This document shows positions 2,209-6,683 of a stretch of 58,352 nucleotides of DNA, in pieces. Positions within the stretch are counted from its first letter, which is position 1. Each line of letters opens with the position of its first letter. This DNA is from Rhodospirillales bacterium (GTDB lineage Bacteria > Pseudomonadota > Alphaproteobacteria > BOG-932 > Roseiterribacteraceae): assembly GCA_028291345.1 (NCBI GenBank), contig JAQGIF010000263.1, positions 1 through 58,352 of the forward strand, read 5' to 3'. The notes under the pieces were generated by a model. The model did not search any database, was not told the DNA's origin, and saw nothing but the letters and a program-made list of their open reading frames with translations. The translations under genes and the position numbers were made by a program.

Positions 2209-2760
2209 CGTTACGCCTCAATTGGGTTTGGAAATATAGATGAAAGGTGGTTGCCCGACCGGGTCTCTTCAATGCGTGACCGGGGCTTGCCACGGCTCTT
2301 CCTTCGAGCTGTGTACGATTTGTCTTCGATGCCGCCACCCCGTCATTTCCTCGACCCTAGCCCTTGGCCCTTGGTACCAGCCGTAGGCCTCTGCCCCAGC
2401 CCCTTGGCCTTGGGCCCTCATCTCAAGCGCGAGCGGACGCACCATGGCGGTCACCGTTCTTACCTTTTTCTGATCGGTGCTCGCGATCTATCTCGCCTGC
2501 CTGCCGGATTGCCCGCTTTTTCTCGGGAGGTAAACGTTATCGATGGAAAAGCGTTTCAGCCGCAGGCCTGCACTTTTGAACTAAATCATAAGATTGCTTG
2601 AATTAAAGACCGACAACAACTCTGAATGGACCGTCCATCCGAAGGGGCAGGGCATCGGTCTTCCAATCGAGTCGAGTCAGGGAGCAAGTAGCTAGGTTTA
2701 CATAAATTTTAATAAAATTAGATAGATATGCGTTTCATGCGGATCGCCGTGTCGCTCGAC
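2209..2760. other. Long intergenic region between dps and the DSF synthase gene
   Basis: About 550 bases with no convincing gene. Open frames here lack ribosome sites and resemble no family. The 2209-2260 part should hold the dps promoter. A CCTTGG-rich stretch (about 2357-2410) has small direct repeats of no clear meaning. From about 2690 the DNA becomes strongly AT-rich (runs of AAATTTTAATAAAATTA), which stands out in this GC-rich genome and may be an upstream activating or protein-binding tract for the rpfF promoter. Confidence 0.5.
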
Positions 2761-2761
2761 C

Positions 2762-2830
2762 TTACAGCAATATCTTGTCATTATTATAATGGGCTATTGC
2801 AGTAAGCGTGGCATTCTTACTGCAATAGCC
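2762..2830 (+). promoter_or_regulatory. rpfF promoter and 15-bp perfect inverted repeat
   Basis: A perfect TATAAT lies at 2785-2790. A weak -35 candidate (TTACAG, 2762-2767) is 17 bases upstream. Two bases after the TATAAT begins an uninterrupted 15-bp inverted repeat, GGCTATTGCAGTAAG at 2792-2806 with its exact complement at 2816-2830 and a 9-base spacer. It covers the expected transcription start, so it is well placed for a repressor operator. As RNA, part of it could fold at the 5' end of the rpfF leader. There is no T-run typical of a terminator, only TGTTTT after the right arm. Confidence 0.5.
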
Positions 2831-2900
2831 TGTTTTATCAGCATGTTTCGCGTGCCGGAAATTTTCAATCCCGTCGATACCAACCCAAGGAGTCCCGTAA

Positions 2901-3893
2901 ATGACTTATCTGCAAAAGAAATTCGGTCTGCCCGCTCTCGTCTCCGACGCTTCCGCCCATCAGGCGTTCGGCGCCGATCTTGCCACGAATCAAAGCCTTG
3001 TTCCGGCGCATGTCGAAGTCGGCGCCCAGCATTATGACAATCTGGACGTCGAAATTGATCCAGAGGCGCGCACCTATTGGTGCTCGATGCTTCCGCAGGG
3101 CCGGGGCAGTTTTACACCCGGGCTGCTGCAAGACCTCATCGGCATGCAAAAATCCATCGAACGTATGTTTGCTGAACGCACCCATGAGGCAAAGCCTCCG
3201 TTCGATTATTTCGTCCTTGCGTCGCGTTGCCCAGGAATATTCAACCGAGGCGGAGATCTCGGGCTGTTCGCCGAGAAGATCCGCCTCGGTGAGCGCGATG
3301 CGCTTCGCAGCTATGCACATAGCTGCATCGAAGCGGTTTATAATGGTTATGTCTCTTTCAACTCTCCCGTGGTGACGATCGCCCTCGTGCAGGGCGAAGC
3401 GCTTGGCGGGGGCTTCGAAAGCGCGCTGGCGCTCGACCTGATCGTCGCCGAGAAAAGCGCACGGATGGGATTCCCGGAAATCCTGTTCAACCTCTTCCCG
3501 GGCATGGGCGCCTACAGCCTCCTGTCGCGCCGCCTCGGTGCCGCTCAGGCCGAAAAGATGATTCTGAGCGGTAAGATTTACACAGCTGAGGAGTTGCATG
3601 AGATAGGCATCGTCGATGTCTTGGCTGAAGACGGCGAGGGCGAGCTCGCGACGCGCGAATATATCGATCGGCATGCTTATCGGCATAATGCTTATCGGGC
3701 GGTGTTTCAGACGCGCAAGCGCGTGAACCCCGTCACGTTCAACGAGCTGCGCGACGTCACCGACATCTGGGTGGAGGCTGCGATGGGCCTCTCCGAGTCG
3801 GATCTGCGCCGGATGGGGCGCCTGACCGCGGCGCAGGATCGCCGCCAGACATCGCGGAACATGGCGATGGTCGCGTCCGTGTCGGCGGAATAA
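2901..3893 (+). CDS. rpfF: RpfF-type DSF (cis-2-enoyl fatty acid) signal synthase
   Basis: 330 residues of the crotonase (enoyl-CoA hydratase) superfamily, RpfF branch. RpfF proteins turn acyl-ACP into a cis-2-unsaturated fatty acid by dehydratase and thioesterase steps; the product diffuses between cells as a quorum signal. The two catalytic glutamates of Xanthomonas RpfF (E141 and E161) have counterparts E173 in LGGGFESALALD and E193 in MGFPEILFNLFPGMGAYS, with the same 20-residue spacing. The long N-terminal extension and helical C-terminus also fit RpfF rather than a metabolic hydratase. AAGGAG lies about 9 bases before the ATG. The gene converges on an rpfC homologue, the normal rpf partner, across a hairpin terminator. 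Confidence 0.9.
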   Translation: MTYLQKKFGLPALVSDASAHQAFGADLATNQSLVPAHVEVGAQHYDNLDVEIDPEARTYWCSMLPQGRGSFTPGLLQDLIGMQKSIERMFAERTHEAKPPFDYFVLASRCPGIFNRGGDLGLFAEKIRLGERDALRSYAHSCIEAVYNGYVSFNSPVVTIALVQGEALGGGFESALALDLIVAEKSARMGFPEILFNLFPGMGAYSLLSRRLGAAQAEKMILSGKIYTAEELHEIGIVDVLAEDGEGELATREYIDRHAYRHNAYRAVFQTRKRVNPVTFNELRDVTDIWVEAAMGLSESDLRRMGRLTAAQDRRQTSRNMAMVASVSAE

Positions 3894-3950: not shown

Positions 3951-3983
3951 AACGGCAAGGGGTATACGGGACCCCTTGCCGTT
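3951..3983. terminator. Bidirectional hairpin terminator between rpfF and rpfC
   Basis: A perfect 13-bp inverted repeat (AACGGCAAGGGGT / ACCCCTTGCCGTT) with a 7-base loop, in the gap between two convergent genes. The stem is GC-rich with A/T ends and is followed by GTTCTTCG. The U-tract is modest, but position and strength fit a shared transcription terminator. Confidence 0.65.
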
Positions 3984-4127: not shown

Positions 4128-6683
4128 TCAGTTCAGACCTTCTGACTGCTCGACGGTCGCCTGGTGCTGAAGCAGCGCGTGACAAACGCGCTCCAACTCC
4201 GCCGTCAGGCGTTCGGCATGCCGCCGCCCATCCAATTGAAGCTCGGTCTCGCCGATCTGTCGCCACTGCAGGCATAGATCGTACAGTCCTTTGGCGCCGA
4301 TATTGGCAGCGCCGCTGCGCAGCGCATGCGCCTGATCGCGGAACATCCGCACATCCACAGCTGCCGCAGCGTCTGCAATCTGTTGCAACAGCACGCCGGC
4401 ATCGCTGATGAATTCCTTGATCAAATCGGCGAGGAAGGCTTTGCCGCCGAGCGCTTCCAACTCGCTGAGGACACGCATGTCGATTGCCGGCAGGGCGATC
4501 GCCGGGCGGAACCTGGGATGGGCGGTAATGTCGGTCACCGGCTGCTTGTTGGTTTCGACGACAGACTCAGCCAGCGCCTTGTTCGGCACCATTGCCTCGA
4601 TGATTTCGATCAGACGCGACGGTTCGACCGGCTTCGTGATGCACGCGTCCATCCCGGCGTCGGTGCAACGCTGCGCCACTTCAGGCGTGATGTCGGCGGT
4701 GAGCGCGACGATCGGCAGATGCGGTAGTCCCAGGGCGGTGAAGCGGTACAGTTTGGTCGCCTCCAATCCGTTCATGATCGGCATATTAACGTCCATTAAC
4801 ACCAGATCGAAATTCGTCTGTTCTAGGGCGTCCAGTGCTTCCTCGCCGTTGCCGACCACCTCGGATTGATGGCCGGCGCGTTCGAGTATCTTGGCCAGGA
4901 CTCGCTGATTGGTGCGGTTGTCGTCGGCGACCAGGATATTCAGCTTGCGCGCCGGCCTTGCCGTTGGCGCATCGGCAACGGGGGCGACAGTGGGGACCAG
5001 TGCACTGCCGCGCTGGCCGCAGGCGATCAGCAGCGCCGCCTGCAATTCCCGCTCGTCGATCGCCGGCGACAGCAAGGAGGTGAAATGCCGCCGGACCGCT
5101 ATCTCGGGCAGGCCGGTGGCGTGGACGTCGTCGATGAGAATTATCGGCAGCCGGCCGGTCGGATCGAGTCCCAGCAATGCGGAGGCCAGCGCATCGGCAT
5201 CGGCGATCAGGCCTTCCTTGTGCAGGATAAGCGTCCGTGGTGTTCCGTCGGGCACGACGCGCAGCAGGTTGATTGCCTGCGCGGCGGTCGCGGCAATCTG
5301 GATGCCGGCCTTCCAAGGCGCAGCCAGATCGGTGATGCGTCGGGCCATGTCCTTGTCGGACGACAACAGGATGATCTTTGCGTCCGCAAAACTGATTTCG
5401 CGCTCAGTAGGCAGCTGACGGTCCAGGTCCAGCGTAAACCAGAAATTGCTGCCCACACCGAGCGTGCTGTTGACGCCGATCTCGCCGCCCAGCAATTCCA
5501 CCAGCCGGCGGCAGATGGCAAGGCCGAGGCCGGTTCCACCGAACCGATCGATGATGGTTTCATCGGCCTGTGTGAAGCTGTTGAAGATGCGCCCGACAGC
5601 ATCTTCGGCGATCCCGACGCCGGTGTCCGAGACCTCGAAGCGCAATCGCAGCCGCGTACTCGACAGTGGGGTCGCGTCGACCGAGAGGGTGACGCTGCCG
5701 GAGTCGGTGAATTTCACCGCATTGCCGGCCAGGTTCATCAGAATTTCGTGCAGATGGCGCTGGTCGCCGCGCAGGTTCAGCGGCGTGCGAGTCGTAATGT
5801 GGAGGCCGAGGCGCAGGTTCTTCGCCCTGGCCTGGGCGGTCACCATTCCGCGCACATCGGCCAACATCGCCGCCAGGTCGAAATCGACCTCATGCGTCGG
5901 CATATGGCCGGCTTCGATGCGCGACAGGTCCAATATGCCGTCGATGAGCGACAGCAGCGATTTGGCGGCGCCCTGGACCGTGCGGGCCATATCCTGCTGC
6001 TCGACATCTAATTCGGTGTCGGTCAGCAGCCAGCTCATGCCGATAATCGCGTTCAGCGGAGTTCTCAGCTCATGGCTGACACTGGCCAGGAACAGGCTCT
6101 TCGCCTGGTTCGCTTGTTCGGCCTGATGCTTGGCATGGGACAGTTTGCGGATCAGCGTGCCGGAATAAAGCGGAAGGACCAGCAGGCCGATGAGCAAGCC
6201 GATTGATAGATCGAGATGGTCGCTCCAGAATGAGGTGGTTGCAACGACGCCGCCGAATCCCGCTATGGCCACCGCCATGGAGGTGAAAAGAGTAGTGATG
6301 CCGAACCGAAAACCGTTGCCGAAGACGATCCATAAATACAGCATGAACAGGACCGTCGCGTTTTCGCCACCGACATGCAGTTGCAAGGACAACGTGCCCA
6401 CATCAACCAGCATCGCAATATGCCGGCGTATCGCCGATCGCTGGGGGCGGAACAATATGTGAAGGAAGATGGACACCGTTGCGCACGGGTAAAAGCACAT
6501 CACCAGCAGTTGCGCAGTGATGGCGCCAGATCCGTTGATGGCAAGATAGAGGACGATGATGAGACAGATCGCGAGCCGATTAAAGCTCATCTCAAGCTCG
6601 CTATCCGGCCTGCCGCGTATCGATGGCAAGACGCGGTTTAGGGCCGGAAACGATAAACGGCGGGTGAAATCACGCAAGCACAT
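4128..6683 (-). CDS. rpfC: RpfC-type hybrid sensor histidine kinase (DSF receptor)
   Basis: 851 residues, arranged like RpfC. A short cytoplasmic N-terminus carries RPDSELEM, matching the conserved DSE stretch before the RpfC sensor. Five or six membrane helices follow (about 38-178), then HisKA with H204 in [11 protein letters not shown], and HATPase with N-box [10 protein letters not shown]1 DTGVGI and G2 GGTGLGL. A second, degenerate receiver-like stretch (about 433-555) lacks the acidic pocket. A true receiver (about 581-700) has phosphoacceptor D631 in VLMDVNMP, and an Hpt domain has H786 in [14 protein letters not shown]. In Xanthomonas, RpfC senses DSF, binds and restrains RpfF, and passes phosphate to RpfG. 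The N-terminal motif supports the long start at 6683, which has no obvious ribosome site. Confidence 0.88.

Follow-up and report, generated by a model that had tools for sequence, protein, structure and literature searches.

A perfect 15-bp inverted repeat upstream of an rpfF-like gene in a Rhodospirillales bacterium resembles an RNA stop-or-go hairpin, or a recent replication accident, more than a standard protein-binding site

In transcription attenuators, such as those of amino acid operons, one leader strand has an upstream and a downstream pairing partner, and a U-rich tract lies between the downstream hairpin and the gene. Intrinsic (rho-independent) terminators likewise have a long perfect stem, a short loop and a T-rich tail directly after it. 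Palindromic operators that overlap a promoter provide another setting for an inverted repeat; most operator half-sites are shorter than 15 bp. Finally, an imperfect palindrome can be corrected by template switching during replication (PMC8794818, PMC7202029), a process reported both to create and to repair RNA stems (PMC8794818). The locus described here shares features with all four. Little is known about the control of rpfF-type synthases outside Xanthomonas and Burkholderia, and an open literature search turned up no article describing hairpins or terminators in rpfF leaders.

The window, meaning the whole 58,352-nt stretch of DNA that was analysed (contig JAQGIF010000263.1 of assembly GCA_028291345.1; C16 in our numbering), belongs to a genome of 5.63 Mb in 401 contigs. 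The order is represented by five genomes in our collection. One of them, the metagenome-assembled genome (MAG) bog_932 of the same genus (G001, locus L033), has a close rpfF (74% identity) and is the sole close relative in the collections; it is called the relative below. The features of the locus are as follows.

2713-2718, plus strand: TAAAAT in the AT-rich block 2701-2725, a weak candidate upstream -10 element with no good -35 in the window; the block is kept in the relative
2761-2774, plus strand: segment 1, CTTACAGCAATATC, which copies part of the right arm and could base-pair with the left one; a candidate anti-terminator strand
2785-2790, plus strand: TATAAT, promoter-like; TACCGC in the relative
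2792-2806, plus strand: left arm (segment 2) of the perfect inverted repeat
2807-2815, plus strand: spacer or loop; together with the first bases of the right arm it is kept as CGTGGCnTTCTTAYTG
2816-2830, plus strand: right arm (segment 3), which closes a strong predicted hairpin
2831-2838, plus strand: T-rich tail directly 3' of the stem, terminator-like
2887-2892, plus strand: ribosome-binding site AAGGAG, in the strongly kept stretch 2868-2903 (17-19/20 identities per 20-nt window)
2901-3893, plus strand: rpfF-like gene (DSF-synthase/crotonase family)
3951-3983, no strand assigned: terminator-like perfect hairpin of 13 bp downstream of rpfF; the relative has a similar, GC-rich hairpin behind its rpfF
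4128-6683, minus strand: hybrid histidine kinase (HisKA-HATPase-REC-Hpt by domain matches), convergent, with an RpfC-like layout

The product of the rpfF-like gene is an enoyl-CoA hydratase-family protein (ECH_1). It passed the PRK08788 model with a score of 371 against a cut-off of 177, and it matched the RpfF structures in the PDB with an E value of ~1e-58. The GGGFE and FPE motifs, which we take to carry the two glutamates of RpfF, were kept in the alignment to 5fus. Its score was under the curated RpfF equivalog cut-off (221 vs 550 bits). The assignment to rpfF made by an earlier sequence-only reading is reasonable given the PRK08788 and structure matches, and the gene downstream of the repeat probably makes a fatty-acid cell-to-cell signal. 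The domain order of the convergent kinase is the layout known for RpfC. A Dps gene lies upstream of the rpfF-like gene in divergent orientation, and an IS630-family transposase gene is found at 192-1307 on the minus strand, near the contig start. The stretch at 2868-2903 (ATCCCGT..TACCAACC.AAGGAGTCCCG.AAATG) shows more conservation than translation initiation by itself would require, and may be a target of translational control. The relative has a second, truncated rpfF, a 3' part at a contig end (L042/L122; PLTD01000252, G001:C69) that is 77% identical over residues 252-330. The GC-rich hairpin CCGGCAAGGGAC follows both copies, and the second copy reflects either a paralogue or a mixed population.

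The left arm, GGCTATTGCAGTAAG, is the exact reverse complement of the right arm, CTTACTGCAATAGCC, and the 9-nt spacer CGTGGCATT separates them. G2791 is the only base between the TATAAT and the repeat, and 70 nt separate the end of the repeat from the rpfF-like start. The sequence-only reading had described the exact arms, the 9-base spacer and the single base after the TATAAT, and had called such a repeat rare by chance. Both statements held. When the 692-bp intergenic region was dinucleotide-shuffled 1000 times, perfect inverted repeats (spacer 3-20) reached 11 bp at most, so that a 15-bp repeat is not explained by chance. In a 628-kb sample of the genome, about 5 places (~1 per 125 kb) carried a perfect repeat whose arms were 15 bp or longer and whose spacer did not exceed 30; several other perfect hairpins of this genome also have T-rich tails. 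The repeat is therefore rare in its genome, yet not unique in kind. The genome-wide search that had been proposed for the palindrome revealed no recurrence of the arm: 65 matches were found at up to 3 mismatches vs 248 for the reversed control, and the next-best match had 2 mismatches. The 201-bp region around the repeat had no second copy in the genome either, and a mobile-element copy (MITE or IS end) was rejected since neither the arm nor this region occurs elsewhere in it.

As RNA, positions 2786-2842 were predicted to fold at -26.7 kcal/mol (z = -6.2). The tail TGTTTTAT has 6/8 T (P ~0.007 by composition) and ties for the richest in T among 21 sampled perfect hairpins of this genome (arms of at least 12). 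A stable predicted hairpin and a T-rich tract directly after the stem, two marks of an intrinsic terminator, are thus both present; the tail would pass the rule of a terminator scanner, and the 9-nt loop is one base above its limit. The locus differs from typical terminators in lying upstream of a gene and not after it, in a stem of only 47% G+C and in a loop whose sequence is kept. According to the fold prediction, the hairpin does not cover the ribosome-binding site.

The left arm has a second potential partner. Segment 1 matches the right arm at 12/15 positions (P ~0.002 in the flanks) and could pair with the left arm at 13/15 (P 0.007), with a predicted energy of -12.1 kcal/mol for the 1:2 hairpin. 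When the upstream flank was shuffled, an equally strong fold was obtained in 11% of cases (energy P 0.11). For a growing RNA that starts at 2726, the 1:2 pairing was predicted until ~2825 and a flip to the 2:3 pairing from 2828.

The leader alignment with the relative gave a mixed picture. The perfect repeat and the TATAAT were both absent from the bog_932 leader, so for the perfect palindrome itself the finding was one of those that the sequence-only reading had named as speaking against it, no conservation in close relatives. Four blocks were kept at fixed spacing: TTGnCATTATTA, CGTGGCnTTCTTAYTG, GTTTTATC (2832-2839, identical at 8/8 positions) and the ribosome-binding region. The loop/right-arm block has a single 0-mismatch match in each of the two genomes. 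The relative's leader contains its own perfect hairpin of 9 bp, GGTAATAAT-ttgac-ATTATTACC (z = -4.6). It also has a second, weaker one (-12 kcal/mol, z = -0.6) whose base ends in CGG followed by UUUUAUC, at the same tail. Ten of the 15 stem pairs were kept when G-U was counted, which is no better than random substitution between these two sequences (P 0.28), and a stem conserved by covariation was rejected. No comparable repeat was found in ~30 more distant rpfF leaders; those of 49-58% identical proteins gave neither an alignment nor a repeat. Viral contigs contained no relative of the locus, and plasmids only distant ones.

We tentatively read the repeat as the terminator-like one of two alternative states of a leader RNA, a transcription attenuator before rpfF, a reading in which our confidence stays somewhat below even. 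Transcription would start upstream of 2761, perhaps in the kept AT-rich block near 2701-2725. In the nascent RNA, segment 1 would pair first with the left arm; once the right arm is made, the left arm would switch to it and form the long perfect hairpin. This hairpin, directly followed by UGUUUUAU, would stop RNA polymerase before rpfF, and a factor that holds the 1:2 pairing or blocks the 2:3 pairing would allow rpfF expression, in response to some signal. The perfection of the stem possibly came from a recent replication template switch on an imperfect repeat. Observed are the repeat, its T-rich tail, the alternative pairing with the predicted energies, and the keeping of tail and loop in the relative; the upstream start, actual termination and any signal are inferred. 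The relative also lacks the TATAAT by which transcription would begin within the stem, which favors the attenuator reading. Against this reading stand a comparison with one close relative only, in which the 2:3 hairpin is weak and covariation is absent, and a kept loop, which one would not expect in a plain terminator. The energy control with the shuffled flank, the absence of an Rfam match at the gathering score and the lack of a convincing upstream promoter in the window also weigh against it. Unlike described attenuators, the leader has no conserved leader peptide (the 25-aa ORF at 2728-2805 has no in-frame counterpart in the relative, and was rejected as such a peptide) and no known effector; its U tract is interrupted and its stem is not rich in G+C, and its architecture has support from a single genome, to which the one relative adds an outline only. 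The sequence-only reading had offered an operator or a leader hairpin. The leader-hairpin half gains support because of the U-rich tail, the alternative partner and the relative's hairpin that ends at the same kept tail.

CTTACA-18-TATAAT is one sigma-70-like match where 1.0 is expected by chance, and the start that the sequence-only reading had put within the repeat is an inference only from this TATAAT, a hexamer that is not kept. Upstream, 2706-2725 has 16/20 identities with the relative by pairwise alignment, and TTGAGC-17-TAAAAT is the relative's only sigma-70-like match. A search for sigma-70-like matches found no convincing upstream promoter in the window, so the evidence for one consists of the kept AT-rich block and a promoter-like match in the relative only. 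Should the TATAAT nevertheless be used, the mRNA would start at about A2796 and begin with an 11-bp hairpin that might protect it from decay. The spacing of the TATAAT puts the start at 2796-2797, and RNA from 2796 was predicted to fold without free 5' bases (-13.8 kcal/mol); with a z of only -2.1 and a TATAAT at chance level that the relative lacks, we find such a stabilizing 5' hairpin very unlikely. A sigma-54 promoter is more improbable still. TGGCAT-N5-CTGCA (GG-N10-GC) across the loop and right arm could serve as a -24/-12 element; with a matrix written from the consensus it scored 12.1 bits, the best in the intergenic region, where 0.06 are expected on both strands, and rpoN is present in the genome. 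The relative has GG-N10-GT at 3.8 bits, which is at chance level, and the other rpfF leaders had nothing consistent at this position. The sigma-54 promoter was rejected because the good score here falls to a chance score in the relative and GG-N10-GC is not kept.

The two arms and the upstream partial copy could also be three sites (CTTACWGCAATA) for a pathway-specific DNA-binding regulator that covers -35 to +30 of a sigma-70 promoter and blocks rpfF. Such an arrangement would resemble known promoter-overlapping operators, because a promoter-like sequence is surrounded by an inverted repeat and one more, incomplete copy. The three copies lie within 70 bp, the third unlikely by chance as noted above, and overlap CTTACA-18-TATAAT; by inspection, each is a near-palindrome around TGCA. 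The third copy is the one fact in favor of the operator half of the sequence-only reading. Against that half, the arm does not recur in the genome, and neither the site nor the promoter is kept in the relative. The 15-bp arms are longer than most half-sites, and of the neighbors scanned, none next to rpfF encodes a transcription factor. We consider an operator doubtful. About as doubtful, in our view, is the repeat being nothing but a by-product of replication, in which a recent template switch between imperfect arms gave perfect pairing that has no present regulatory role. The arms are perfect here and imperfect in the relative, whose ACAAT/ATTGT outer pairs could be the imperfect substrate. 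The left-arm changes are clustered (all of 2800-2803 and 6/7 of 2787-2793 differ), as in the correction of quasipalindromes by template switching, and most differences in the right arm are transitions. With two sequences and no outgroup the direction of change is not readable, and a switch does not explain why tail and loop are kept or why a second partner strand is present. A template switch can also coexist with function, as in the attenuator reading above.

Several other interpretations of the region were rejected. A small ORF across the repeat (2789-3037, MGYCSKRGILTAIACFI...) has similar residues in the relative, yet no ATG, GTG or TTG precedes the similar stretch in frame, and the substitutions show no third-codon-position bias. 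No Rfam family was found at the gathering score in the window, which had sub-threshold microRNA-type matches only, or in the relative. A trans-acting small RNA that ends at the hairpin was rejected because its upstream body (2726-2765) is not kept.

The rpfF leaders of other Alphaproteobacteria were rich in TTAACCAT, TTAA-N7-TTAA and the related GTTAAC/TTAACC; we take the first two to be CtrA-type sequences. TTAACCAT was present in 8/18 rpfF leaders vs 5/119 leaders of other genes in the same genomes (Fisher P 1.6e-5), and in 10/30 leaders of rpfF homologues vs 0.3 in shuffles. The enrichment concerns the rpfF leaders L034, L036, L037, L040, L144, L147, L150-L157, L159, L160, L162, L163, L166 and L170, together with genome stretches L192-L211. 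This distribution suggests cell-cycle (CtrA) control of the DSF-type synthase in much of the Alphaproteobacteria; CtrA-type sites were absent from the rpfF leaders of the window and its close relative. In the two rpfF leaders of the sister genus (L144 and L145, from G003 and G004), TTTATTGTGYTTATCATC lies a short way upstream of the start codon; it is similar to CTTATTGTGATTGTC in the relative's leader (L033) and is possibly a shared promoter element.

If the template-switch reading is true, the locus is an example of a perfect hairpin that arose in regulatory DNA and distinguishes two congeneric species. If the attenuator reading is true, the leader would give rpfF a specific control point that is easy to test. 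A further step, that a leader RNA which responds to a signal, as a riboswitch-like element or as an attenuator under the influence of a protein, sets the level of the DSF-family signal synthase in this alphaproteobacterial lineage, is one we hold to be quite unlikely on present evidence. If it were true, signal production in these bacteria would be gated by RNA folding and not by the promoter alone.
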